Assembly (NCBI GenBank): GCA_021806345.1
Contig: JAJZXP010000447.1
Span: 1-9,817, forward strand
Origin: Thermoplasmata archaeon
GTDB lineage: Archaea; Thermoplasmatota; Thermoplasmata; Thermoplasmatales; Thermoplasmataceae
Direction of reading: 5' to 3'
Length of the DNA: 9,817 bases
Numbering within the stretch: the first letter of the stretch is position 1; each line of letters starts with the position of its first letter. Under the pieces are notes generated by a model. It did no database searches, was not told where the DNA came from, and worked only from the letters and a program-made list of their open reading frames with translations. The translations under genes were made by a program, and so were the position numbers. This document shows, one piece after another, positions 1 to 9,817 of the stretch.

Positions 1-68
1 GGTATCATTTTGCAGTAAGCTACCTCGATATTAAGTATCAGCATGGGTTATACCATTCGATTGCCTTG

Positions 69-692
69 ATGGAAGTAGAATTACAGTTCAGGGCACCTGC
101 TGAATGGATAAAAATACTTGTGGAAACCCATTCGGCGAGGATTAAGATAAGGGATATCCGGAGAAGCAAGGAAGGAGTAAAGGATCTGGTGGAAATCTTT
201 GCTCCTGCAGGCGATATCAAAGGACTTTCTTCAGGTCTTCTCAAAGAGACAGAAACAACGGAGGATCATCTTACCATGGTGGATGAAAACCATGCAACTG
301 CAATAGTCAATGCGGGCCAATGTCCAATTTGCAGTGTAATCCTTAACTGGGACTTGTTTCTGGTAGAAGCTTACAGCACCGATTCTGGAGACATGATAAT
401 GCGATGGCTAGTCCCGGACGAGGCTACAGTTTCTGGATTCTTAGCGCGTCTGGATGAAGATGGGGTTAAGTTTGAACTGATCAAGAAGAGGAACCTTACC
501 AAAAGGGGTGATATCACCTCAAGGCAAGAATACGTTGTAAAAACAGCCCTTGACCTTGGATTCTTTGACTATCCAAAGAAAGTGAATCTTGAAGGGCTTT
601 CTAATCGACTAAATGTTTCTTATGTGACACTTGCAGAGATCCTTAGGCGTGCTGAAAAGAATATTATCTCTTCTTACTTCAAGAAAAAATAG
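69..692 (+). CDS. HTH_10 (bacterio-opsin activator type) transcriptional regulator
   Basis: Probable DNA-binding regulator of the archaeal Bat/HTH_10 family. The C-terminal 55-60 residues (about 148-205) match the family pattern: 'TSRQEYVVKTALDLGFFDYP', then a helix-turn-helix with 'LSNRLNVS' and 'LAEILRRAEK'. The N-terminal 140 residues form the usual poorly conserved sensor-like part and carry a CPIC pair (Cys85 and Cys88), which could bind a metal or respond to redox state. I chose ATG at 69, giving 207 residues, the normal size for short members and with a typical beta-strand start (MEVELQF). A TTG lies one codon earlier. The frame stays open to the left edge of the window, so a longer, truncated gene cannot be excluded. 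It is the only + strand gene in the left part and is a candidate regulator of the minus-strand redox genes that follow; that link is inference. Confidence 0.8.
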   Translation: MEVELQFRAPAEWIKILVETHSARIKIRDIRRSKEGVKDLVEIFAPAGDIKGLSSGLLKETETTEDHLTMVDENHATAIVNAGQCPICSVILNWDLFLVEAYSTDSGDMIMRWLVPDEATVSGFLARLDEDGVKFELIKKRNLTKRGDITSRQEYVVKTALDLGFFDYPKKVNLEGLSNRLNVSYVTLAEILRRAEKNIISSYFKKK

Positions 693-930
693 GAATAGTG
701 GTTAAACCCTTTATTTCGGTGGCATTTGAAGATGCGCAGTATTTCAGAAAATATCTTTTCCACATCAGCCTTTTTCCGGAAAATTTTCCGAGTAAATCAA
801 GAATTTCTTCGTGCCCATGACCCAGAATCATGCTTATGCTTTTCCTGATCGTTAGATGAATACGCTGTAAATCTTCATCATTCCGAAAAACTTCTGGATT
901 CCATTTCAGGATTGTTGCGATCCTGAACTT
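679..930 (-). pseudogene. Unassigned open frame, possible gene remnant
   Basis: The 301 bases between the regulator and the small membrane-protein gene hold no recognisable gene, but one minus-strand frame is open for 83 codons from a TAA at 931-933 to a TGA at 679-681. It encodes a plausible helical, charged protein including 'NDEDLQRIHLTIRKSI' and 'HGHEEILDLLGKF'. There is no ATG, GTG or TTG near its upstream end; the first in-frame ATG is internal. Reading further upstream through the TAA, the frame stays open to the stop codon of the 156-residue membrane protein. It may be a degraded gene with a nonsense mutation, or chance. I recognise no family. Confidence 0.2.
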
Positions 931-993
931 TTAAAATTCTGATTCAAAAATGTTTAGTCTGATCAGGTCTTCGCAGAGATGTAGTGAATATGA

Positions 994-1464
994 TCAATAA
1001 TCGTCAGCAAAAGACTGAGTCTCACTTTTCTGGACTTTTCTCGTTGTTGCTACAAGAGCAATGTTTATCAGGTGAAGAGATACAGCTATAATAATAGAAA
1101 CAAGGCCAATAATTGCACCAATCTTCCCTGCTGTTCCGGTTACTGCACCGGAGAAACCAGTGAAAAACAGTATTACTCCCGCGTTAAGAAGATAATATTC
1201 TTTAGATACTGTCGACTTCATATGTGCACTGCTTCTTGTCAAGCCAGATGAAAACATGTATGAGAGCCCGAATATTATCATTGCAACAAAGCCAAATAGC
1301 CATAACACAAAGATTGCATCATGGCTCACCATAAATACACCTAGAATGTCAGCAGCAAATACTGCAAGACCCACAAGGAGGTAGAAGAAGCTGGTTGCGA
1401 TGAACTTGAGAACAAGTGTGGGGTTGACCCCAAGGGAACGTCTTTCATCAAGGTTATATGGCAT
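994..1464 (-). CDS. Small four-helix membrane protein, heme-copper-oxidase-subunit-I-like
   Basis: An integral membrane protein of 156 residues with four hydrophobic segments (about 16-42, 50-73, 91-110 and 114-140) and a polar C-terminal tail. The pattern of a first helix, then His48 followed by 'LFGFVAMIIFGLSYM', then 'LLNAGVILF' and a last helix with His131 resembles small proteins related to part of heme-copper oxidase/NorB subunit I that lie near nnrS and nor genes; this assignment is tentative. The start is ATG 1464 because GGAGGT (complement of 1473-1478) lies eight bases upstream; an in-frame TTG at 1473 would overlap that ribosome site. The gene follows the DUF2249-cupin gene after 28 bases and very likely shares its transcript. 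A heme or metal role for the histidines is inference. Confidence 0.65.
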   Translation of the reverse strand: MPYNLDERRSLGVNPTLVLKFIATSFFYLLVGLAVFAADILGVFMVSHDAIFVLWLFGFVAMIIFGLSYMFSSGLTRSSAHMKSTVSKEYYLLNAGVILFFTGFSGAVTGTAGKIGAIIGLVSIIIAVSLHLINIALVATTRKVQKSETQSFADDY

Positions 1465-1472
1465 ATTCCTCA

Positions 1473-1478
1473 ACCTCC
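1473..1478 (-). promoter_or_regulatory. Shine-Dalgarno site GGAGGT deciding the start at 1464
   Basis: On the minus strand GGAGGT is followed by eight bases and then ATG. This is an ideal archaeal ribosome site, fixes the start at 1464 rather than at TTG 1473, and fits an internal operon gene. Confidence 0.7.
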
Positions 1479-1492
1479 ATTGGTCCGCTTAA

Positions 1493-2119
1493 TCAGAGGA
1501 ATTTTCCTTTCGAGAGTTTTTCATGTACTTCTCTATGATCGTCTTCCGTTGGTATCGGAGAAACAATGTGGAGTGCTTCAATATCTGTCTTAGCCGAAAT
1601 TCCCCTCTTTTCTCCTCTCGGAATGATGATAAGCTTTCCAGGATAAAGATCGACTTCGTTCTCGCCTGCAACAGCCATGCCTGTTCCCTTGAAAACGGCA
1701 AAAACCAAATCGGTATCCGGCGAGTGAACCGGGATAAACTGTCCTGCCCTGATATATGTGATTATGACCTTGTAGTCCTTCCCCGAATATATCCCGACCG
1801 GAGAGAACCTCTCCGGCGAGAAGCTTCTCTCGTCGTCAAAACTGGTTATCTTGACTTTTCCAGTTGGTGCAGGATTCTCTCCCCTTCTAAACACACCAAC
1901 AAAAGTTCCGTCCGGGTTCCCGTGGGTCTCATACGCAGAAACCACTACCGGCAAACCCTCATGTTTCATGTGCTCCAGCAAATGCCTTGGATCATGGTCT
2001 ACAATTACATGCAGTTCATGCCCAGGGTGCAAAGAAAGGAATTTCTCGAATATCTTTGCGTGTCTCTCCGCCGGCGCAATTGTTCTGGCATCAATTGTGC
2101 TATATTCTTGAGTCTTCAT
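1493..2119 (-). CDS. DUF2249-cupin fusion protein
   Basis: A soluble protein of 208 residues with two domains. Residues about 8-80 match DUF2249: 'IDARTIAPAERHAKIFEKF', 'HPGHELHVIVDHDPRHLL' and a closing beta strand ending 'GVFRR'. This small SirA-like domain is common next to hemerythrin, nitric-oxide-reductase and NnrS genes. Residues about 112-190 form a cupin barrel: 'GQFIPVHSPDTD' and 'LYPGKLIIIPRGEKRG'. The cupin metal site is incomplete: His132 is present, but the second His of motif 1 and the His of motif 2 are missing, with only His184 further on. It may therefore bind a ligand without metal or use a different metal set. ATG 2119 is preceded by a TATA box at about 24-31 bases, so the message is probably almost leaderless. 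It is the first gene of an operon with the 994-1464 membrane protein. Confidence 0.8.
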   Translation of the reverse strand: MKTQEYSTIDARTIAPAERHAKIFEKFLSLHPGHELHVIVDHDPRHLLEHMKHEGLPVVVSAYETHGNPDGTFVGVFRRGENPAPTGKVKITSFDDERSFSPERFSPVGIYSGKDYKVIITYIRAGQFIPVHSPDTDLVFAVFKGTGMAVAGENEVDLYPGKLIIIPRGEKRGISAKTDIEALHIVSPIPTEDDHREVHEKLSKGKFL

Positions 2120-2142
2120 GAGAACCTTTAGGCCTTGCCCGG

Positions 2143-2150
2143 CATTTATG
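2143..2150 (-). promoter_or_regulatory. TATA box of the DUF2249-cupin operon
   Basis: CATAAATG on the minus strand sits about 27 bases upstream of ATG 2119 and immediately downstream of the palindrome at 2155-2170. The spacing predicts transcription starting at or within a few bases of the start codon. Confidence 0.5.
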
Positions 2151-2154
2151 AAAT

Positions 2155-2170
2155 CCCTACATTTTTAGGG
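2155..2170. promoter_or_regulatory. Palindromic operator candidate, copy 1
   Basis: The + strand reads CCCTACATTTTTAGGG, with CCCTA/TAGGG arms around a six-base centre. A near copy is found at 3506-3521. In both cases the element lies just upstream of the TATA box of a minus-strand gene and is followed on that strand by AT after the GGG. Placement next to the BRE/TATA region fits a regulator that recruits or blocks TFB/TBP. Confidence 0.5.
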
Positions 2171-2190
2171 TGTGGTAGAAAATTAGCTCC

Positions 2191-2214
2191 AGGATTTGGG
2201 ATGTATTAAATCCT
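2191..2214 (-). terminator. Inverted repeat after the NnrS-like gene
   Basis: AGGATTT (2191-2197) and AAATCCT (2208-2214) are perfect seven-base arms around a ten-base loop, 15-38 bases beyond the stop of the gene at 2230-3456. It may be a transcript-end stem-loop. The sequence between the arms is AT-rich (minus strand AATACAT), so a second promoter element cannot be excluded. An octamer TTAGCTCC is repeated directly on both sides (2183-2190 and 2220-2227). Confidence 0.3.
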
Positions 2215-2229
2215 ACACCTTAGCTCCAA

Positions 2230-3456
2230 TCAATTTGTTTTGCTGATCTCATCGGACGAATGCTGCTTTTTGTGTACTGGATCAAGCGAGCCCATTATGC
2301 GCCTAAGATTGTAAATAAAGGCGACAATGGCGATCAGTATAACGAATCCGGAAATGTATGAAATTGTGTACCCTACCTGAGCAAAGGGTGCCAACAGATC
2401 ACCGAAAACTCTCATGACATTCGCAATTGTCAGAATCACAAGCGGCAGGTACGAAACATTTTCCTGATTGGCTTTCTTCTTCAGGGTTAAGGGGAATATG
2501 ACCGGACTGTGGGCAACAATGAATGTGCCTATGAAACCTAGCGCAATGGAGTGTGCTGCAGGATCAAGGAACCCATGGCCGGCTATCAATTGGGCCGTAA
2601 AAAGCAAAAGACCGAGGATCAACCAGAGATATGATATTATTACTCCAGTTCTCATAAAATTCTGGAACCTGTTTTTTCTCCTCGCACCATGGAATGTTGG
2701 GTCATACAACACCGACACAGCTATCAAAAAACCAATAAAAGCAATAGAAACATACATTGCAGCATAATGCAACAATGCATTGGATTCAGCAGAAACAAAA
2801 GCTGAAATAACCGCAACCCAGGACACATAAACCTGAATTTTAGTCGTTCTGGATTTCATTCCTCGGACAAACCCGAGTTCCATCCTCTCAGCCAGTACAT
2901 AAATGACAGGAAATAACAGTGCCAGGTAGGTGAGACCTGTATTACCCGTGATAACAAACCCCATATTGGAAAAAGCTGAAAGTGCCATTGCAAAAATCGC
3001 AGCCCCAAATACCTGTTTAATACCTCTCTGTCCAGGATTCCTGCTGCTCGTCATATAATACAGAAATAGAAGCGAGGATGCCATTACAAGGATTAACCCC
3101 ACATATCTCAGGAATGGCAAATTGTAAAGTATGGCTATTGAGGTGCTGAAAACCCCCGCAAAAAGCATTACCAATATGGGTCTGGAAATTGGCAACCGGC
3201 CAGCTAAAGGGAATTTTTCCATCAATTCCAATTTTTCCGTGATTAGCAGGCCACCTACAACACCGAAAATCATGAGATCAGGGTGGAATAAGATTCCGGA
3301 GGCAACTGGAGCGTTAATGTAATACCCGTTGTTTTCTGCAAGGGCAGCAATGCCCGTCAGAAGGCCAAGTGCAAGAGAAACAACCGAAAGAAGTATTCCA
3401 GCATAAACTATGGGAAGTGGCTTTACAGCTTTCCTATTTCTGGAAATTTCAGGCAT
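2230..3456 (-). CDS. NnrS-like polytopic membrane protein
   Basis: A 408-residue integral membrane protein with about 11-12 hydrophobic helices from residue 15 to 383 and a polar tail. It resembles the NnrS superfamily of heme/copper-associated proteins, best known from bacterial nitric-oxide response. The signature is near the C terminus: His302 in 'AHSIALGFIGTFIVAHSPVI' with His316, then 'YLPLVILTIANVMRVFGDLL'. Further possible ligands are His58 in 'LFHPDLMIFG', His230 in 'LLHYAAMYV' and His294. NnrS is thought to relieve nitrosative stress by limiting metal-nitrosyl damage; whether this archaeal member does so is inference. ATG 3456 has GGTGA seven bases upstream and a TATA box about 40 bases upstream. 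The gene precedes the DUF2249-cupin operon on the same strand with 110 bases between, which hold a separate promoter. Confidence 0.65.
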   Translation of the reverse strand: MPEISRNRKAVKPLPIVYAGILLSVVSLALGLLTGIAALAENNGYYINAPVASGILFHPDLMIFGVVGGLLITEKLELMEKFPLAGRLPISRPILVMLFAGVFSTSIAILYNLPFLRYVGLILVMASSLLFLYYMTSSRNPGQRGIKQVFGAAIFAMALSAFSNMGFVITGNTGLTYLALLFPVIYVLAERMELGFVRGMKSRTTKIQVYVSWVAVISAFVSAESNALLHYAAMYVSIAFIGFLIAVSVLYDPTFHGARRKNRFQNFMRTGVIISYLWLILGLLLFTAQLIAGHGFLDPAAHSIALGFIGTFIVAHSPVIFPLTLKKKANQENVSYLPLVILTIANVMRVFGDLLAPFAQVGYTISYISGFVILIAIVAFIYNLRRIMGSLDPVHKKQHSSDEISKTN

Positions 3457-3491
3457 TGCAAATTCACCTTCAGAAAATTCATCCTGAAGTC

Positions 3492-3499
3492 AGTATAAG
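3492..3499 (-). promoter_or_regulatory. TATA box of the NnrS-like gene
   Basis: CTTATACT on the minus strand lies about 40 bases upstream of ATG 3456. Initiation about 25 bases downstream leaves a leader of roughly 15 bases, enough for the GGTGA ribosome site. The palindrome at 3506-3521 lies directly upstream. Confidence 0.45.
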
Positions 3500-3505
3500 A
3501 ATCAT

Positions 3506-3521
3506 CCCTAAAAAATTAGGT
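3506..3521. promoter_or_regulatory. Palindromic operator candidate, copy 2
   Basis: The minus strand reads ACCTAATTTTTTAGGG, agreeing with the + strand of 2155-2170 at 13 of 16 positions, with CCTAA/TTAGG arms. On the minus strand it stands just upstream of the TATA box of the NnrS-like gene, the same arrangement as copy 1. It also lies in the divergent gap before the small cassette starting at 3553, so it could influence both directions. Confidence 0.5.
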
Positions 3522-3527
3522 TGATGC

Positions 3528-3535
3528 TTTTATCA
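3528..3535 (+). promoter_or_regulatory. Candidate TATA box for the small-gene cassette
   Basis: TTTTATCA lies about 21 bases upstream of ATG 3553, slightly closer than ideal. It would give a leaderless message that begins near 3553, which favours ATG 3553 as the original start of the frameshifted winged-helix gene. Confidence 0.35.
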
Positions 3536-3552
3536 TAGTCATTAAACTTGAT

Positions 3553-3746
3553 ATGGGGAGAATAGAGAAAACTCACGCAAAATAGGGCAAACGTTGCCTT
3601 ACGAGAAATTTAAAGCACTCTTTTCAACGACTAAGCTAGGTGGAAATAGCTTCTATAATTTGCTCCACAAACTTGAACACAATGGTTTGATTGAGATAAT
3701 TTTGAATAATGAGGGATGGCCCATTCAGGTTATGGTGAAGGAATGA
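3553..3746 (+). pseudogene. Small winged-helix DNA-binding protein, apparently frameshifted
   Basis: Two overlapping frames look like one gene. From ATG 3553 the first frame gives 'MGRIEKTHAK' and stops at TAG 3583-3585. The neighbouring frame, open from 3552 to TGA 3744-3746, gives 'PYEKFKALFSTTKLGGNSFY', then 'NLLHKLEHNGLIEI' and a short wing. This is a winged helix: a recognition helix 'SFYNLLHKLEHNGLIE' followed by a beta wing. The span is 194 bases, one short of a multiple of three, so a single missing base near 3575-3585 would join the frames into about 64 residues. If nothing is missing, TTG 3594 would start a 50-residue protein, but it has no good ribosome site. The stop overlaps the next ATG (ATGA), so the genes look like a coupled regulator and membrane protein. 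It may be a true mutation, a sequencing error or programmed shifting; the fold call is fairly good, the status is not. Confidence 0.5.
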
Positions 3747-4021
3747 ACCCCCTCTCCAAATTTGGATTCTTATTGATTAGTGGTTCATCTTTAGGCATCA
3801 TCGTCTTGAAAATTCTAGTGAAATACCAACTATTCCTTGGAACTTGGCTCTACGCTTACATATCAGATCTTGCAGTCCTTTTTGGACTTATATTTTTTAT
3901 TGCCATAATCTTAATTTTGAATCCTATAATGAGGAATTTTATAGTATTGGGTTTGACATTTCTCATTTTCTTGTTTTTGGTTTACATCTTCATTGTGCCA
4001 GTTTCTCTAATAGGTGTTTGA
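3743..4021 (+). CDS. Small three-helix membrane protein
   Basis: A hydrophobic protein of 92 residues with three probable membrane helices (about 7-27, 39-60 and 66-88), connected by short polar turns; the longest loop is 'KILVKYQLFLGTWLYAYISD'. I see no catalytic motif and no known family. The start is ATG 3743 because GGTGA lies at 3734-3738 and the ATG overlaps the stop of the winged-helix gene, a typical coupled junction. An in-frame ATG at 3716 would add nine residues inside the upstream gene. The zinc-finger protein begins two to five bases after its stop, so all three small genes appear to share a transcript. Regulator, membrane and zinc-finger proteins together could form a small signalling or immunity-type module; this is inference. 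Confidence 0.6.
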   Translation: MNPLSKFGFLLISGSSLGIIVLKILVKYQLFLGTWLYAYISDLAVLFGLIFFIAIILILNPIMRNFIVLGLTFLIFLFLVYIFIVPVSLIGV

Positions 4022-4025
4022 AGTG

Positions 4026-4172
4026 GTGAAGTGTAAAGTTTGCAAGAGACCTACGGCAGTCGTTAAAGTATTTGGAAAGTTGAAAACTAGAGCAATTGGT
4101 TGGTATTGCTTCAAAGATCATCGCTTTGTTCCTGACGAAGATAAGGTGAAGATGGAAGAAGAAATGATTTGA
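4026..4172 (+). CDS. Short CxxC...CxxxH zinc-finger protein
   Basis: A 48-residue gene that is easily missed. It starts at GTG 4026 (or GTG 4023) and ends at TGA 4170-4172. The sequence begins 'VKCKVCKRPTAVVKVFGKLK', followed by 'TRAIGWYCFKDHRF' and an acidic tail 'DEDKVKMEEEMI'. A CxxC knuckle followed by Cys and His on the second half ('CFKDH') is the layout of short archaeal treble-clef or ribbon zinc fingers such as the N-terminal finger of TtuA-type sulfur-transfer enzymes ('CxxC...C..HF'). A GGTG at 4013-4016 serves as a weak ribosome site. It begins two to five bases after the membrane-protein stop, suggesting coupled translation. The function is unknown; a protein- or RNA-binding adaptor role is a guess. 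Confidence 0.6.
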   Translation: MKCKVCKRPTAVVKVFGKLKTRAIGWYCFKDHRFVPDEDKVKMEEEMI

Positions 4173-4209
4173 ACCTTCACTGACAAATTGATTAAGGTTC
4201 ACAAAATAA

Positions 4210-4217
4210 TTTATAAA
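4210..4217 (+). promoter_or_regulatory. TATA box of the nuclease pair
   Basis: TTTATAAA is a near-consensus archaeal TATA box. Its centre is about 25 bases upstream of ATG 4238, predicting a leaderless message that starts on the start codon. Confidence 0.65.
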
Positions 4218-4237
4218 CTCAATAGGCTCTTCATTTT

Positions 4238-4750
4238 ATGCCCGCATCTTTATATGAATCATTAGCCAGGGAATACCTGGAAACTGAAGGCTATCTCGTG
4301 TACAATAATCTTAAAATGCCAAACAAACAGGAAATAGATATTTTTGCATATTCTCCTAAGAAAGAAGCAATAATTGGTGAAGTGAAGGCAATAAATCCAA
4401 ATGAAAAGGCCATGGAGAAGTTGGCTTCAAAGCTCGACAAAGAAGTAATACTAGAATTTGTCAAGGAGAGCTATGGGGTCAAGGATTTCAAACTCGTTCT
4501 CTTTTGTTGGAACATGTATGAACATGATGAGCCAATGAAGAAATATGGAAAGAAACTTGGCTTTGATGACGTCATTACCTACCCAGAAATAGTTAAGACG
4601 TTATTTGAAAATGTAAAGAAAGTAAGGGATAATGATAGGTGGTTCTATGATGTGAATCGCCCCAACACACTTTTGCTACAAATCATATACGATGCCCTTT
4701 TGAATGAGTCTCAATATTTGAACAAGAAAGATTTTGAGGACTCAAAATGA
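4238..4750 (+). CDS. PD-(D/E)xK restriction-endonuclease-fold protein
   Basis: A 170-residue protein with a restriction-endonuclease-like core at the N terminus. Helix one 'LYESLAREYLETEGY' supplies Glu7 or Glu11, then 'QEIDIFAYSP' holds Asp34, and 'AIIGEVKAI' holds Glu48-x-Lys50, giving the D...ExK active site in the correct order and spacing. Later strands ('FKLVLFCWNM') complete the sheet. The C-terminal part from about 95 is helical and charged and has no family I recognise. The expected activity is Mg-dependent DNA cleavage. The start is supported by a TATA box 25 bases upstream. The stop TGA overlaps the ATG of the GIY-YIG gene, so the two nucleases are translated together. It is shorter than most type II enzymes, and may need a partner, possibly the GHKL ATPase, for targeting. 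Confidence 0.75.
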   Translation: MPASLYESLAREYLETEGYLVYNNLKMPNKQEIDIFAYSPKKEAIIGEVKAINPNEKAMEKLASKLDKEVILEFVKESYGVKDFKLVLFCWNMYEHDEPMKKYGKKLGFDDVITYPEIVKTLFENVKKVRDNDRWFYDVNRPNTLLLQIIYDALLNESQYLNKKDFEDSK

Positions 4751-5199
4751 TTTCTGCAACCTTAACAGATTTTAAATCGATTTCAGATTTCGCATCGGCT
4801 CAAAAGGAAGCTCCAAAATTACCCGGTATCTATGTACTGAGGAAGAAAGATGCCATCAAGTTTCCGAGGATAAATGGAGAGACTGATATATTATATATAG
4901 GGAGTACTGATAATCTTAAAAGACGATTTTATGGTTATAATCATCCAGGGAAATCCCAATATACAAACCAAAAAGTCAACAACTTTGTCATTAATCTGAA
5001 CCATGAGGCAGAATTTATGTGGAAAGTTGAACCAGACCCTGAAAGGGCGAGGTTCACTGAACATGAATTACTAAATAGATACCAAAAAGATCATCATGAG
5101 TTCCCTCCATTGAATGGAGCTAGTGTAAGGTCGTTGAAGTTAACATTGTCTCCCGAAAAGATAGGTCTTTTGGACGAATTAAGTATGAAAGAGCCCTGA
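4747..5199 (+). CDS. GIY-YIG nuclease
   Basis: A 150-residue single-domain nuclease of the GIY-YIG family. 'PGIYVLRKK' holds Gly27-Ile28-Tyr29, 'ILYIGSTDNLKRRFYGY' holds Tyr50-Ile51-Gly52 and the conserved Arg59/60, and 'TEHELLNRYQKDHHEFPPLN' holds the metal-binding Glu107 and the final Asn123. All catalytic positions look intact. Members include homing endonucleases, UvrC-type repair nucleases and restriction enzymes such as Eco29kI. Its ATG overlaps the TGA of the PD-(D/E)xK gene. A 260-base gap follows before the next promoter. Two different nuclease folds made in one coupled unit beside a methyltransferase and a GHKL ATPase suggest restriction; a repair or nicking role is the alternative. 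Confidence 0.8.
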   Translation: MISATLTDFKSISDFASAQKEAPKLPGIYVLRKKDAIKFPRINGETDILYIGSTDNLKRRFYGYNHPGKSQYTNQKVNNFVINLNHEAEFMWKVEPDPERARFTEHELLNRYQKDHHEFPPLNGASVRSLKLTLSPEKIGLLDELSMKEP

Positions 5200-5425
5200 G
5201 TCAACCCGAATCAGCTATTGGCAGCGTTAGGAAAGTATTTTTGCTTTATTTCCCAATTTTCAAATTTGTGAAATTGTAGAGGTGAAGAACGCAGTTTTTC
5301 TGGCATGAGATGATCGAGGATACAGTCAAAGCGAACGTATCCGCTTCACTAAAATTGTTATAATTCGTTGAATAATATACCATATTTTGTGAATTAGAAG
5401 AGTGAAAATTATATGACAGATAAGC
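5200..5425. other. Non-coding gap between the nuclease pair and the ATPase operon
   Basis: No convincing gene. There is a T-rich stretch at about 5237-5251 that could end the nuclease transcript, a weak hairpin CAATTT/AAATTG at 5254-5276, and short AAGCG/CGCTT arms at 5329-5346. A 17-codon frame from ATG 5310 ('MIEDTVKANVSASLKLL') has no support and may be a remnant. Confidence 0.4.
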
Positions 5426-5435
5426 TTTAATATTT
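5426..5435 (+). promoter_or_regulatory. TATA box of the small protein/GHKL ATPase operon
   Basis: TTTAATATTT is centred about 29 bases upstream of GTG 5460. This gives a start of transcription within a few bases of that GTG and supports it as the first gene of the unit. Confidence 0.5.
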
Positions 5436-5459
5436 CAATCGCTATATACTCTGTGCGAG

Positions 5460-5693
5460 GTGACTTTCATAACGAAAAGTGAGAAATTTGTGTTTTTAGC
5501 TGAAAAAAGGCTTGAAAAGGCGATTCATGCAATAGAAATATTAAAACCATTATCAGACAAATCTCGATACGAATATTCTGAAAAACAAGCAAATTACATA
5601 GTGAAGAAACTGAAGACGGCTGTAAATGAATTAGACTTGAGTTTCAAAGGTGAAAAAACAAACCAAAAGAAAGTGTCTTTGCCAAAAGAGTAG
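5460..5693 (+). CDS. Small charged helical protein (77 residues)
   Basis: A soluble, mostly helical protein. The core 'RLEKAIHAIEILKPLSDKSR' followed by 'YEYSEKQANYIVKKLKTAVN' resembles a short repeat seen at the ends of many phage- and restriction-associated proteins (R.EKxLKAI..L..LS..S.YxYT..Q...I...L), but I cannot name a family with certainty. The C-terminal 15 residues are lysine-rich and likely disordered. It starts at GTG 5460, placed by the TATA box 29 bases upstream; no ATG is available. The stop lies 37 bases before the preferred start of the GHKL ATPase, and the ATPase frame is open across its end, so the two are almost certainly cotranscribed. A DNA-binding accessory or partner of the ATPase is possible. 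Confidence 0.55.
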   Translation: MTFITKSEKFVFLAEKRLEKAIHAIEILKPLSDKSRYEYSEKQANYIVKKLKTAVNELDLSFKGEKTNQKKVSLPKE

Positions 5694-5730
5694 GTCAGTA
5701 GAGGTTCAGAACAAATTTGGAAGTGACAAT

Positions 5731-8010
5731 ATGGTAGTATTAGATCTTGTCAATGCAAAATCAGAACGAGAAGTAGCAAAGATAATTAGTTCGTCTTCAG
5801 TTTTCCTGTATGGGGGCTGGAAGCCGCTTGGTGGTATAGATAACAATTATGGTGTAGTGCTGAATCAGCAAGCGCATCCAGTCGCATCTATAGTCGAAAA
5901 AATTGTAAATTCAAGCGATGCAATTCTCATAAAGGAATGCAAGAGAAGAAAGATAGATCCAGAAGGAGACGAAGCACCGGAATCAATGTTCGAAGCAGTA
6001 GAGGAGTTTTTTGGGGTCAAAGATGGAGACCTTGGAAATCTCCCCTCTAAAGAGAGAAGAGAGTTAGCCAAAAATATCCGGGTCATTGCAGACGGGGACA
6101 AAAGTGAACCCAATATAATAGTTGCAGATTTGGGAGAAGGGCAACATCCTGAAGATTTTGAAGGAACATTTTTGACAATATTGAGGGGTTCTTCTAGAAA
6201 GCGTTTTATTCCTTTTGTTCAAGGGATGTTTTATATGGGAGGAACAGGGGTTTTGCCAAATTGTGGAAAATATGGTTATGAATTAATTATCTCAAAAAAG
6301 GCTCCTGATATTGGAGACCCGCTGAAGTCCAACAAATGGGGGTGGACACTTATCAGAAAGAATTTAGAACTAGAAAGATATGAATACTTTGTAGGTGACG
6401 ATGGGATTATCCCCACTTTTGAAACCGATAGGCTTTCCATATTGCCCGATGGAGAAGACCTTCCATATGGTACTTTTATGAAAATGTACAGTTACAACAT
6501 GGATACTAAGTCAAACATAACAGCTGAGTTTTGGAAGAAGTTAAACAGATTCCTTTTCCGTTCCCCTCTGCCAGTGTTATTGCAAGAGTCTAGAGATTTT
6601 GCAAGTGCAGTTATGCAAATTGTCTTGGAAGGAAACCAATACTCCATAAATCAACATAGGGACAAAATAGAAACTGAATTTACTATTGAAGAGAAGATAG
6701 GAGACCTTGGTATTAGGAAAATACGAGTTTATGTTTTCAGAGATGATTTAGATCCAAAAGAAAACTATTACACTTCAGAAGGAGAGGCAATCTTTTTAAC
6801 AATCAATGGTCAGACACACGCTTCATTTGGAAGGAGTTTTATAAAAACCAGGGCTAAAAAGCCCCATCTTTCGCGCACATTGTTGGTAAGTATTGATTGT
6901 ACAGACATAGCAGGTACACTTCAGCATGATGCCTTCATGCCTTCAAGGGACAGGATGAGAGATAATGAAGTCTCTGCGAAGATTATGGAAGACTTGGCCT
7001 ATGTATTACGTAATGATGACACTCTCAAGAACATTGACAACGATCGATATCAGAAATTAATTGAAAAAAGTGTTGACGACACCGATTTTGCGAATAAAAT
7101 AATAGGGAAGCTTATTGCAGCCAATCAAGATTTAATAAAGTACTTAAAAATCGGAGGTAAAATCTCGCATCCTACACAACCTGGGAAAAAAGAAACTGTT
7201 CCAACTTTTGGTTCTTTTCCCACACATCTCAGAATTAAGGGGTGGAAGGGTGATAAGGGTGTTTTCACAAAGTCCATTCCAATAAACGCGGTTAGGTCTA
7301 GAATTGATTTTGAACTTGATGCTCCAAACGATTATTTCGATAGGGCCTGGGCCCCTGGTACACTGCTTTTATCACCTTCAGAGAGCTATGTAGGAAGAAA
7401 GCAGAAAGATGGTATACTAACGCTTAGAGTTATGCCAAAACAAGGTGCTAAAGTTGGAGATAAACACGATACGAAGGTTGAAGTCACAAGATATCAAGAT
7501 TCTACACTTTCCGTCCAATTTGAGATTAAATACCTACCACCAGCCGACCCCACGCCTCCTGGACCAATAAATCCAAAGGACAAACTTCCAGGGATGCAAG
7601 ATTTAGGACTTCCAAAGCCAATTCCAATTTACAGAGATGGATGGAAACAGCATAACTGGTCCGGGGAAGATGTTGTAAAAATAGAAGCACGTGAAAATGG
7701 TGATTCCAATCTATCAGAACTCACAGTTTTCATAAATATGGATAGTGACGATCTCCTATCATTCAAGAGAAGGGGAGGTTATATCTCGAAAATGGTGAAA
7801 GCAATCGATAAGAGTTATGAAATTGGAATACTTCTATATTCTCTTACATCCTACATGGAGCTGATTAACTATAGGAATAATCAAGACAATCAAAACGAAG
7901 GAGAGATAGACGCAGGCTCCATAGTGTCAGTTGTTATGAAAGGTGTCTCCAAAGCATTACTAGATATGGTTTGGAATACTGGAATAAGGGATGCTCTCCA
8001 AGATACATAG
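5731..8010 (+). CDS. GHKL-type (MutL/MORC/Hsp90-like) ATPase
   Basis: A 759-residue protein with a divergent GHKL ATP-binding domain in the first 190 residues. The N box is 'VEKIVNSSDA' with Glu56, Asn60 and Asp63. The G1 box is 'IIVADLGEG' with Asp133, Gly135 and Gly137, and the G2 lid is 'GMFYMGGTGVLP' (165-176). A second, S5-like block follows with 'FLTINGQTHASFGRSF' (355-370) and 'FMPSRDRMRDNE' (402-413), which I associate with large GHKL proteins in restriction neighbourhoods. A proline-rich linker at 602-632 separates a C-terminal domain ('VFINMDSDDLLSF', 'YEIGILLYSLTSYMEL'). The likely role is an ATP-driven dimeric clamp on DNA. I chose ATG 5731, with GTGA just upstream; an in-frame GTG at 5650 adds 27 basic residues overlapping the preceding gene. 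The gene converges with the methyltransferase, one base apart. No nuclease motif is seen, so cutting would rely on partners. Confidence 0.7.
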   Translation: MVVLDLVNAKSEREVAKIISSSSVFLYGGWKPLGGIDNNYGVVLNQQAHPVASIVEKIVNSSDAILIKECKRRKIDPEGDEAPESMFEAVEEFFGVKDGDLGNLPSKERRELAKNIRVIADGDKSEPNIIVADLGEGQHPEDFEGTFLTILRGSSRKRFIPFVQGMFYMGGTGVLPNCGKYGYELIISKKAPDIGDPLKSNKWGWTLIRKNLELERYEYFVGDDGIIPTFETDRLSILPDGEDLPYGTFMKMYSYNMDTKSNITAEFWKKLNRFLFRSPLPVLLQESRDFASAVMQIVLEGNQYSINQHRDKIETEFTIEEKIGDLGIRKIRVYVFRDDLDPKENYYTSEGEAIFLTINGQTHASFGRSFIKTRAKKPHLSRTLLVSIDCTDIAGTLQHDAFMPSRDRMRDNEVSAKIMEDLAYVLRNDDTLKNIDNDRYQKLIEKSVDDTDFANKIIGKLIAANQDLIKYLKIGGKISHPTQPGKKETVPTFGSFPTHLRIKGWKGDKGVFTKSIPINAVRSRIDFELDAPNDYFDRAWAPGTLLLSPSESYVGRKQKDGILTLRVMPKQGAKVGDKHDTKVEVTRYQDSTLSVQFEIKYLPPADPTPPGPINPKDKLPGMQDLGLPKPIPIYRDGWKQHNWSGEDVVKIEARENGDSNLSELTVFINMDSDDLLSFKRRGGYISKMVKAIDKSYEIGILLYSLTSYMELINYRNNQDNQNEGEIDAGSIVSVVMKGVSKALLDMVWNTGIRDALQDT

Positions 8011-8011
8011 C

Positions 8012-9022
8012 CTACCAAATTTTGGTTATATATTTTTCAGGTATGGTTATCTGGTTGATTCTATAATTCATCAACTCAAAATTGTCTGAACTCAATTCAA
8101 CACCTATTGGTTTCCTTCCCATTTTGAATGCAGAAATACATGTCGAGCCACTTCCTGCGTGAGGATCTAGAACAACATCACCTACGTCTGAAGATGCGGA
8201 TATAATCCATTCTAACAAGTCAGATGGTTTCTGTGTGGAAAAGCCACAATATTCCAAGTGCTCACCATTCACTGAAGTAATATCTAGAATAGACTTAGGA
8301 AACCTCCAACCATTGTTTATGGATGTGTAATCTTTTTTATATTTTCCCTGTGTTGACGATTTCGCCTCCGGTTTCCTTCGTTTCTTGTAGGGTTTTCCTT
8401 TAAATCCACTGCGTCTATAGTAGAACTTAGTTTTTTCAGTTAAACATCTTTTCTTTTTGAATACAAATATATTTTCATGAATAGGTATTGGCATAAAATT
8501 AGAAACCCACGGGTTATTTTTTTTGTTCCAGATAATTTCAAATCTAAAGTCAAAATATTCTGAAAAGGCCACCAAGACTCTACTAATCATAGGTTGTTTG
8601 CCGAAGATATAGACTAACCCATTATCTTTTAAAATATAATCGTACACCTTAGCTAGAACGTCCCAGTTTGGTTCTTTGTCCCAAATATTCTTGGTAATGC
8701 CATATGGGGGGTCATCTATTATTAGATCTATGGACCCTCTTGGTAGTGTGTAGACTACATCTTCGCAATAGCCATTCATTGTTCTTGGAGAAAAGAATTG
8801 TGGAAGCGAATGACCCAATGGACGTATGTATTTATGTTTCCATTTCTTAGAGTCCTTGTATCTTTGGTATAAATAGTAATTCTCGTGCACTTTTCTTATG
8901 TCAAATTTTGTCTTTGGAATGTTAACATTTCTCCTAGCATAAACTGGCATTTTTTCTTTTACTATGGGTTCTGCGCAATTGAATGAATACGTAGGATCTA
9001 CCTGAAAATCTAGCTTATTCAA
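8012..9022 (-). CDS. Beta-class DNA methyltransferase (N6-adenine or N4-cytosine)
   Basis: A 336-residue S-adenosylmethionine-dependent DNA amino-methyltransferase. Motif IV 'DDPPYG' (104-107) lies before motif I 'VLDPHAGSGST' (286-293), the order of the beta class. 'FSTQKPSDLLEWII' (262-274) and 'GRKPIGVEL' (302-310) are also typical. A lysine/arginine-rich insert at 187-232 is in the place of a target-recognition region. The first 90 residues are an unusual extension. Motif I has His where Phe is usual (DPHAGSG). The start TTG 9022 follows directly on the TAA of the winged-helix gene, with GGAGG 11 bases upstream; the next in-frame ATG would remove 24 residues. It probably protects host DNA from the nucleases on the other strand; the target sequence cannot be read from the protein. 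Confidence 0.85.
   Translation of the reverse strand: MNKLDFQVDPTYSFNCAEPIVKEKMPVYARRNVNIPKTKFDIRKVHENYYLYQRYKDSKKWKHKYIRPLGHSLPQFFSPRTMNGYCEDVVYTLPRGSIDLIIDDPPYGITKNIWDKEPNWDVLAKVYDYILKDNGLVYIFGKQPMISRVLVAFSEYFDFRFEIIWNKKNNPWVSNFMPIPIHENIFVFKKKRCLTEKTKFYYRRSGFKGKPYKKRRKPEAKSSTQGKYKKDYTSINNGWRFPKSILDITSVNGEHLEYCGFSTQKPSDLLEWIISASSDVGDVVLDPHAGSGSTCISAFKMGRKPIGVELSSDNFELMNYRINQITIPEKYITKIW
8014..8037 (+). terminator. Terminator candidate at the convergent gene ends
   Basis: ACCAA/TTGGT arms around three bases (8014-8026) are followed by a T-rich run to 8037, three bases after the ATPase stop. It lies inside the last codons of the opposing methyltransferase gene, so one element may end + strand transcription within the partner gene. 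Confidence 0.35.
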
Positions 9023-9355
9023 TTATTGTGTCGCCTCCATTTCCCAAGTCTTTTGTATTGAAATTGCTAGAGGTAGCACTTTCGCACCAATTTCGCTTAT
9101 AAAATAATTTCCACTCTTTTGTTTTTGATAAATCAACTGCATTTTTTTAAGAGGTTCTATTAGTGAATCAAGAGTTCCGCTTTGCAAAGTGGTAAACTTA
9201 AGATACTTATGAGACAAACCCTGCTCCCTATTTTCGTTAAGTGCTTTGAGTAAGTCTAATACGTGATCCCTACCCAAGACTTTGAGTATTGGACTTTTCA
9301 ATGCACCATCAATGAACGCTAAGTTAATATTATTTCGCTTTTGCCCATTAATCAT
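9023..9355 (-). CDS. Winged-helix transcriptional regulator
   Basis: A 110-residue protein with one winged-helix domain. Helices 'SPILKVLGRDHVLDLLKAL' and 'LSHKYLKFTTLQSGTLDSLI' are followed by 'PLKKMQLIYQKQKSGNYFIS', the recognition-helix end and beta wing, then 'EIGAKVLPLAISIQ'. The pattern resembles HxlR/ArsR-like archaeal regulators that bind as dimers. ATG 9355 has a weak AAGG ribosome site and a TATA box about 41 bases upstream. Its stop TAA is directly followed by the TTG of the methyltransferase, so it is the first gene of that operon. By analogy with controller proteins of restriction-modification systems it could time methylase and nuclease expression; that is inference. Confidence 0.7.
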   Translation of the reverse strand: MINGQKRNNINLAFIDGALKSPILKVLGRDHVLDLLKALNENREQGLSHKYLKFTTLQSGTLDSLIEPLKKMQLIYQKQKSGNYFISEIGAKVLPLAISIQKTWEMEATQ

Positions 9356-9392
9356 TAACTAATAACCTTATGTCAATAGCAATCAACTAATA

Positions 9393-9400
9393 GTTATAAA
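9393..9400 (-). promoter_or_regulatory. TATA box of the regulator-methyltransferase operon
   Basis: ATTTATAA on the minus strand lies about 41 bases upstream of ATG 9355, predicting a leader of around 15 bases. Confidence 0.55.
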
Positions 9401-9698
9401 TTTATTGTTTATCTAGCAAGGAATGCTGTATCTTCAGTAATTCCTACACCTTTCTTCTCATTGTAATTTCATTTTGAAATTCCCTTACTTCCTTCTTTGG
9501 TACGAGACAATATCCATCGAGTCATCTTAGGAATTTACTCTCCAAACTGTATTACACGTAATACCTGTAATACAAGAATTTCTTTCAAACAGATCTAATC
9601 CAAGTTTCACTCATAATGTAAATTGGAAGAAGGACAACTTTCAAAGGTCCAACAAAAATTCAGAAGCAAAAGTGCTTGCAGAACCAACCAGAGTTAAG
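9401..9698. other. Non-coding spacer between the regulator gene and tRNA-Lys
   Basis: About 300 bases with no convincing gene. It holds a perfect AATTTC/GAAATT hairpin (9465-9481), a cluster of three GTAATAC half-sites (9549-9573), and a T-rich stretch on the minus strand soon after the tRNA 3' end. I found no integrase fragment and no copy of the tRNA end. Confidence 0.5.
9549..9573. repeat. Triplicate GTAATAC half-site cluster
   Basis: GTATTAC (9549-9555), then GTAATAC (9558-9564) and GTAATAC (9567-9573), each separated by two bases. The first two make a palindrome with seven-base arms, and the second and third are a direct repeat with a nine-base period. This looks like a regulator or recombinase binding site. 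It lies 150 bases upstream of the regulator promoter and 126 bases beyond the tRNA 3' end. Confidence 0.45.
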
Positions 9699-9772
9699 CG
9701 GGTCCGAGGGGGTTCGAACCCCTGACCTATGGATTAAGAGTCCATCGCTCTACCTAGCTAAGCTACGGACCC
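9699..9772 (-). tRNA. tRNA-Lys (anticodon CUU)
   Basis: A complete 74-base cloverleaf on the minus strand. Acceptor arms are GGGTCCG (9772-9766) and CGGACCC (9706-9700), with discriminator G. The anticodon arm has stem ATGGA/TCCAT and loop CTCTTAA, so the anticodon is CTT (9738-9736), reading AAG. The T arm has stem AGGGG/CCCCT and loop TTCGAAC. There is no intron in the anticodon loop and no encoded CCA. The 3' end faces the defence genes, the side where mobile elements normally insert. Confidence 0.95.
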
Positions 9773-9797
9773 GGCGAACCAAGATATTAATTGGGGA

Positions 9798-9804
9798 TTT
9801 ATAA
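9798..9804 (-). promoter_or_regulatory. TATA box of tRNA-Lys
   Basis: TTATAAA on the minus strand is centred about 29 bases upstream of the mature 5' end, giving a leader of a few bases, as usual for archaeal tRNA genes. Confidence 0.6.
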
Positions 9805-9817
9805 CTTGTTCTCTCAC

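Follow-up and report, generated by a model that had tools for sequence, protein, structure and literature searches.

Gene content of the locus

The window is the whole 9,817-nucleotide stretch of DNA analysed here, from contig JAJZXP010000447.1 of a Thermoplasmata archaeon. At its centre lies a gene pair that encodes p77, a small basic protein, and a GHKL ATPase. The new element is p77, a protein without a credible Pfam or NCBIfam family that, judged from sequence and gene order, appears to be paired with several GHKL ATPase families. The occurrence of GHKL ATPases amid restriction-modification genes is already known from the MORC and paraMORC families (PMC2292703).

A preliminary description of this DNA had listed six adjacent genes, and all six are present in the window's list of open reading frames (ORFs). 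With a seventh gene upstream, they are:

3716..4021, + strand: 101-residue hydrophobic, probably membrane protein, module 1, upstream of the nuclease pair (61% identity to the gene at 8294-8587 of locus L101)
4238..4750, + strand: PD-(D/E)xK nuclease, 170 residues, module 1 (near-invariant E7, D34, E48 and K50; predicted model; structural matches)
4747..5199, + strand: GIY-YIG nuclease, 150 residues, module 1 (PF01541, E 4.8e-8; conserved residues)
5460..5693, + strand: p77, 77 residues, basic, GTG start, first gene of the core pair (profile match; upstream homologues)
5731..8010, + strand: GHKL ATPase, 759 residues (GHKL motifs; relatives; model and structural matches)
8012..9022, - strand: putative beta-class N6/N4 DNA methyltransferase, module 3, convergent with the ATPase (PF01555, E 5.8e-31)
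9023..9355, - strand: 110-residue putative small DNA-binding regulator, directly upstream of the methyltransferase (weak matches only)

The two nuclease genes overlap by 4 nucleotides, and a 260-nucleotide gap separates them from p77. The ATPase gene starts 37 nucleotides past p77 and ends 1 nucleotide from the end of the convergent methyltransferase gene, which is abutted by the gene for the 110-residue protein.

The GHKL ATPase

By its sequence motifs, the window ATPase is a member of the GHKL superfamily, with the E/N/D residues of the N-box, the DxGxG of G1, and the glycines of G2. These are E56, N60 and D63, D133-x-G135-E-G137, and G170 and G173, placed at what we take to be the three GHKL motifs. 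In an alignment of 30 family members, the 12 columns printed are invariant in all 30 except for E56 (29), G171 (27), and R408 (29). Pfam recognises HATPase_c_3 in 11 of these 30 members; the window ATPase itself matches nothing credibly in Pfam, NCBIfam, or PADLOC. Its predicted model has a mean predicted local distance difference test (pLDDT) score of 81 and matches Hsp90, topoisomerase VI, GyrB, SMCHD1, and MORC3 over approximately residues 35-445, a region modelled as a Bergerat fold with an S5-like middle domain. The structural alignments extend over residues 29-444, short of the C-terminal part (446-759).

The family is large, with at least 757 relatives in the protein collection (best 7995 candidates scored). 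Among the matches listed, the closest named relative is from a Thermoplasmataceae archaeon and shares 82% identity. In the phylum sample, 2 of 389 genomes carry the ATPase, one as a partial match. One relative was found on a viral contig and none among phage records.

Pairing of p77 with the ATPase family

Gene neighbourhoods were compared at 88 ATPase loci, which comprise seven plasmid records and 81 contigs, namely the 80 best of the 419 that a genome scan gave plus one viral contig. A profile started from the window p77 detects a homologue immediately upstream of the ATPase, on the same strand, at 22 of the 88 loci; two of these, L011 and L012, are near-identical, which leaves 21 distinct loci. 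At the 22 loci, p77 ends between 18 nucleotides before and 61 nucleotides after the called ATPase start. Hosts of the pair include Planctomycetota and Acidobacteriota bins, candidate phyla radiation (CPR) bacteria, Bacteroidota, Clostridia, Omnitrophota, and one Micrarchaeota archaeon, and p77 carriers are dispersed across the ATPase tree. The 77-residue protein, which the preliminary description had listed without a role, accompanies the ATPase more consistently than any other partner found.

Residues F10, R17, and Y37 are invariant in the p77 family alignment, and the isoelectric point (pI) ranges from 7.8 to 10.1 across the 22 members, with the window p77 at 9.6. When the window, L011, and L012 are left out of the profile, it still recovers the window p77 with an E-value of 1.7e-9 (database size set to 1e6) as its sole match among 74 window ORFs. 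None of the 22 members has a credible Pfam or NCBIfam match, and the two scanned with PADLOC (window and L147) match no model. Against solved structures there was no credible match, the best being a designed helical protein at E 0.0096. No fusion of p77 to the ATPase was seen at a meaningful score in 120 relatives or 101 tree sequences.

At p77-less loci, a PIN (VapC-like) gene can lie directly upstream of the ATPase (L018, L019, L033, L038, L042, and L058, and L044 by eye), preceded at some of these loci by a VapB-like gene.

p77 beside other GHKL ATPase families

The p77 profile also leads to ATPases outside the window family. It matches in 24 of 391 genomes of the class that contains the Clostridia and in 18 of 285 genomes of the class to which a CPR locus belongs, and all 20 genomes re-searched with it have p77 (19 in single copy and one with two). 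The two classes together gave 43 matches, of which 4 weak ones (E 2e-5 to 9e-4), 10 fusions, and 3 within ORFs of 133-184 residues were excluded before counting. The other 26 are stand-alone, and 25 of them are followed within three genes by an ATPase with GHKL motifs: in the next gene in 18 cases, the second in 6, and the third in 1. The lone exception is the second p77 copy in genome G594. Two of the 26 loci, L105 and L130, are the profile-training loci L062 and L079 met again, so the independent count is 23 of 24.

Seven of these 25 ATPases belong to the window family and 18 to others. The largest group, 11 ATPases, is of PDC-M33A type, with nine encoded directly after p77, one in the second gene, and one in the third; PADLOC calls PDC-M33A in both members scanned, followed by PDC-M33B and PDC-M33C in the one fully scanned set. 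Five more are large ATPases behind a protein of approximately 205 residues that looks winged helix-like by eye, and the remaining two are other ATPases, one MORC-like by reading. All 18 non-family ATPases have the motif residues N, D, and G, and 17 have E as the N-box acid, as read from the motif columns of a low-identity alignment in which two sequences are cut by the locus end. Profile-profile comparison of the three largest ATPase families gave no confident alignment (best probability 16%); p77 is therefore what these families share beyond the GHKL motifs.

Plasmids carry the same arrangement. Of 16 plasmid records with p77, 14 were used, since the other two (Agrobacterium and Dinoroseobacter) look like duplicates; the two Priestia regions nearly duplicate one another, and one of the records used carries no annotation. 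A GHKL gene lies next downstream of p77 in 10 of 13 annotated plasmid regions. Six of these genes match the PDC-M33A-type profile (Paenarthrobacter, Arthrobacter, two Priestia, Planococcus, and Deinococcus, the last a fragment after a 536-nucleotide gap), that of Ensifer matches a third family, and GHKL motifs in those of Agrobacterium, Dinoroseobacter, and Rhizobium were identified by eye only. The regions without a GHKL gene next after p77 are those of Vescimonas, Neorhizobium, and Rhizobium SU303. Phage records yielded a single p77 match, weak and in an unrelated context.

Together, these loci show that p77 is a conserved family whose genes lie shortly ahead of those for several families of GHKL-type ATPases, in many cases close to DNA methyltransferases and Vsr.

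PDC-M33A-type genes preceded by p77 are found at L147, L149-L151, L153, L160, L161, and L163 and on plasmids at L167, L171-L173, and L179. At annotated plasmid loci of this type, the third gene after p77 is called as DUF6339 family.

Restriction context of the ATPase and p77 loci

A neighbour test took the nearest genes of at least 100 residues on each side of the ATPase, with p77 skipped and L011 excluded, which gave 159 genes. Removal of four longer than 900 residues and five others (two of L087, two of L088, and the upstream gene of L086, replaced by the downstream GIY-YIG-like gene of L086) left 150. The control comprised 107 genes five positions from the ATPase on the same contigs, which may share the same defence islands. 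With 25 families shown, the control counts are maxima. N6_N4 methyltransferases account for 9 of the 150 nearest neighbours versus at most 1 of the 107 control genes (one-sided Fisher p 0.035), and N6_N4 and 5-methylcytosine (5mC) enzymes together for 13 versus at most 2 (p 0.018).

At 19 extended p77 loci, a 5mC methyltransferase is present at 10 and Vsr at 5; these counts have no control set, and 6 of 8 5mC and 2 of 3 Vsr profile seeds were picked by eye from the counted loci (only the L047 and L088 seeds were checked with Pfam). The Arthrobacter, Planococcus, and Deinococcus plasmids have a 5mC methyltransferase and Vsr annotated beside p77, and two of them also a type II restriction enzyme. 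The restriction-modification flavour that the preliminary description had seen in the window is supported: methyltransferases are enriched beside the ATPase, and 5mC methyltransferase and Vsr genes are frequent at p77-GHKL loci elsewhere. In the window itself, a methyltransferase and nucleases are both present, and type II restriction-modification needs the two to have matching specificity.

Other surroundings recur as well. A gene for 3'-phosphoadenosine-5'-phosphosulfate (PAPS) reductase lies within six genes of the ATPase at 12 loci, mostly with DUF4007 and a DUF6079-like gene and at some with DndB, and these are possibly phosphorothioation-type islands. Subsets of PAPS reductase, DUF4007, the DUF6079-like ATPase, and DndB occur at L001, L003, L005, L065, L069, L072, L073, L075, L077, L078, L080, L085, and L086. 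At further ATPase loci, YhcG or GIY-YIG-like genes occupy the next position downstream (+1).

Three loci (L047:5059-7590, L053:5058-7589, and L062:5079-7601) encode one 840-843-residue protein upstream of the p77-ATPase pair, in which a 5mC methyltransferase is joined to an Eco57I/N6-type methyltransferase domain (by Pfam for L047 and L062). The haloarchaeal plasmids L006 and L007 have a 5mC methyltransferase gene before a 905-910-residue member of the ATPase family; in L006, helicase-related and phospholipase-D-like proteins follow, by reading a DISARM-like setting with an extra GHKL ATPase. The IMG/VR contig L088 has Vsr, 5mC methyltransferase, p77, and ATPase genes together and is possibly a mobile carrier of the cassette.

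Comparison with known systems

The nearest described relatives are the MORC and paraMORC proteins, whose GHKL ATPases in restriction-modification operons were described by Iyer, Abhiman and Aravind in 2008 (PMC2292703). They share with the window family a GHKL domain with an S5-like domain, a patchy distribution in bacteria and archaea, and neighbourhoods with DNA methyltransferases, Vsr, and restriction-fold nucleases. They differ in their signatures: the GhXhhpXXRhl pattern that MORC proper carries in S5 is found in none of the 30 members of the family alignment, and the window protein has neither the ExxxH of paraMORC2 (in S5) nor the C-terminal HxH of paraMORC5. The ATPase may yet belong to paraMORC1, which is marked by a C-terminal extension of its own past S5, or to paraMORC4. 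No superfamily II (SFII) helicase was recognised among the window proteins scanned. p77 does not appear in the three of four parts of PMC2292703 covered here, and among the open-licence papers listed, no title or abstract beginning names a small protein common to these ATPases.

PDC-M33 resembles the core pair in that p77 directly precedes the gene for its GHKL subunit at L147 and L163, as it does at further loci identified by ATPase profile. It is nonetheless distinct, as the window ATPase has no PDC-M33A match at E 1 and the B and C genes are absent from the window. The Shedu protein VcSduA (paraMORC3) likewise combines a GHKL ATPase with a PD-(D/E)xK nuclease in anti-phage defence, and mutation of either one abolishes the activity (PMC12137116). 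In VcSduA, however, the nuclease domain (DUF4263) is in the same protein, whereas none of the 30 aligned family members carries it (Pfam, E 0.1). Mismatch repair by MutL with MutH or Vsr also has a GHKL clamp that activates a separate restriction-fold nuclease (PMC2292703); it differs in its ATPase and nuclease families, and no MutS-like sensor was seen. CapK/CapS is a different GHKL controller pair (PMC13373217), and the GHKL/response-regulator-like pair reported near 5mC methyltransferases and Vsr in PMC8011034 is not p77.

The preliminary description had taken the locus for a candidate undescribed system, and PADLOC gives no credible match to a named one for the ATPase, p77, or the nucleases, the best being the GIY-YIG enzyme to PDC-S14 at E 0.015. 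Its further statement that no standard type I-IV, BREX, or DISARM layout known to it fits also agrees, for types I-III, BREX, and DISARM, with the scan of nine window proteins, eight of which have no match to helicases, PglZ, or specificity subunits; the methyltransferase was judged on 25 of 65 families, all of them methyltransferase models.

Proposed role of p77 and alternative explanations

GHKL dimers close upon ATP binding and act as clamps that control a nuclease, as in MutL and MORC. By analogy with these proteins, the ATPase dimer would close on DNA upon ATP binding. p77 may bind the ATPase, DNA, or both, and would load or license the clamp and set the time of its closing. The methyltransferase would mark self, and unmarked invading DNA would let the clamped complex recruit or activate a nuclease, which may vary by locus and in the window would possibly be the GIY-YIG and PD-(D/E)xK enzymes. 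On the basis of proximity, the window nuclease pair and methyltransferase could fill these roles.

The favoured reading, about as likely as not, is that p77 has been missed as a partner of restriction-associated GHKL ATPases; in it, p77 with the GHKL ATPase is the core of interest, and three modules adjoin in the window. A broader proposal is slightly more tentative: p77 may be the common partner subunit, in bacteria and archaea, of at least three GHKL families (the window family, PDC-M33A, and that linked to the ~205-residue protein), and of others too. As a loader or sensor in one defence class, it would tie the clamp to the modification status of the DNA.

Several observations weigh against the favoured reading. 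No p77 is present at 66 of the 88 ATPase loci, so it is not obligatory; some of these loci start close to the ATPase (156 nucleotides in L071, for example) and hold too little upstream sequence. Among the 18 non-family ATPases, Pfam finds HATPase_c_3 in only 3. At p 0.018-0.035, the enrichment for methyltransferases is modest. Most methyltransferases that neighbour other ATPases seem, from motif order, to belong to another class than the one in the window. Several p77-ATPase pairs, L041 and L087 among them, have no DNA methyltransferase or nuclease among the neighbours read, not all of which were scanned with Pfam. Finally, in 10 genomes of the Clostridia-containing class, p77 is fused to the N-terminus of an enzyme with no evident defence context, presumably an acyl-CoA-synthetase-like ligase from a motif read in its sequence.

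The fusion loci are L110, L112, L113, L115, L116, L118, L119, L121, L122, and L123, and they point to a role outside defence.

One alternative gives p77 the role of a transcriptional controller, or of an antitoxin-like protein, for the operon downstream, and not that of a physical part of the ATPase machine. Its small size, its usually basic character, and its position as first gene before the ATPase would suit such a role, and immune operons can have controllers upstream, CapK/CapS among them (PMC13373217). Against it, 25 of 26 p77 genes precede members of a single ATPase superfamily, a preference for which a generic controller would have no need; p77 also matches no known DNA-binding family credibly and is fused to enzymes in some genomes. 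This explanation is rather unlikely.

Equally doubtful is a second alternative, in which p77 and the ATPase are a self-sufficient defence or stress device and the nucleases and methyltransferases are mere defence-island neighbours. Defence genes cluster anyway, and pairs such as those of L041 and L087 are what it predicts. The recurrence of 5mC methyltransferase and Vsr beside different GHKL families that share p77 argues against it, as does the enrichment of methyltransferases next to the ATPase.

If p77 is indeed a partner of these ATPases, its significance lies in the connection that MORC and paraMORC proteins make between bacterial restriction and eukaryotic chromatin silencing. p77 would mark, and perhaps drive, many such ATPases and unify candidate systems that are annotated as separate. 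Small genes are easily omitted, and p77 is an extra gene to include when such ATPase systems are cloned. It also makes the question of a GHKL clamp loader directly testable.

The nuclease pair, the methyltransferase, and the six-gene proposal

The first nuclease is predicted to have the restriction-endonuclease fold from its model, conserved residues, and structural matches, and the second is a GIY-YIG enzyme. They have 16 and 12 relatives, respectively, in the protein collection. The methyltransferase reads as an ordinary N6/N4 enzyme, of beta class by its motif order, and shares 32-37% identity with plasmid and phage methyltransferases (16 matches listed). The best matches of the 110-residue protein are to CasR (E 0.011) and to MksE and Sar/Rot (E ~0.1). 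The domain calls of the preliminary description therefore stand for both nucleases, the ATPase, and the methyltransferase, while its winged-helix regulator finds no comparable backing in the weak matches of the 110-residue protein.

The same description had joined all six genes into a single new restriction-modification-like system, with the ATPase clamping unmodified DNA for the two nucleases to cut; this is very unlikely and was rejected, as the genes do not co-occur in the 88 ATPase loci, in G377 and G432, or in the 117 genomes of their order. Its attractions are the contiguity of the genes, the overlap and apparent intactness of both nuclease genes, and the recurrence of methyltransferases beside this ATPase family. 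Clusters of other GIY-YIG-like and YhcG PD-(D/E)xK nucleases are also found at +1 in 4 and 3 of the 88 loci, respectively (one member per cluster was checked in Pfam, the GIY-YIG one falling below the cut-off), and YhcG accounts for 3 of the 150 nearest-neighbour genes.

The window PD-(D/E)xK, GIY-YIG, and 110-residue proteins, by contrast, have no match at E 0.1 among the ORFs of the 88 ATPase loci, and the methyltransferase has a few matches there, which fall mostly in its C-terminal motif region. In the order with the nearest left-flank relative, the PD-(D/E)xK gene is present in 2 of 117 genomes (G377 and G432), the ATPase in none (E 0.001), and the window methyltransferase in none (E 1e-20). 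In G377, the PD-(D/E)xK gene is followed by a GIY-YIG gene, and the same membrane-type protein as in the window (97-101 residues) is encoded upstream with one gene between, which at L101 is a 120-residue gene between the membrane-type protein gene and the nuclease pair. No GIY-YIG relative was seen within 18 kb in G432. Relatives of the two nucleases share seven longest-contig sizes with each other (20991, 8436, 3867, 3138, 55936, 3608, and 4398), and the seven nearest ATPases share none of these, an indirect comparison with one value per cluster. The 260-nucleotide gap between the modules points the same way.

Nowhere outside the window were nucleases and ATPase found together, so the nuclease pair is probably a module in its own right. 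Lack of co-occurrence across genomes is the outcome that the description had named as refuting its proposal, and on that count the six-gene system fails. The locus probably consists of three defence-type modules side by side, between core genes and tRNA-Lys: the nuclease pair, the p77-ATPase pair, and the methyltransferase with its putative regulator.

Flanking genes

The right flank is a tRNA-Lys gene; no direct repeats of the tRNA end were reported within window positions 3300-9817, and among viral contigs no relative of the methyltransferase or the PD-(D/E)xK nuclease was confirmed. The left flank (window positions 3-3456) contains genes for an HTH_10 protein, a 159-residue protein, a DUF2249-cupin protein, and NnrS. 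The same four genes, with the second encoding 159-168 residues, occur together in G248 (L103), a genome of the same order, at 59.8-72.1% identity.

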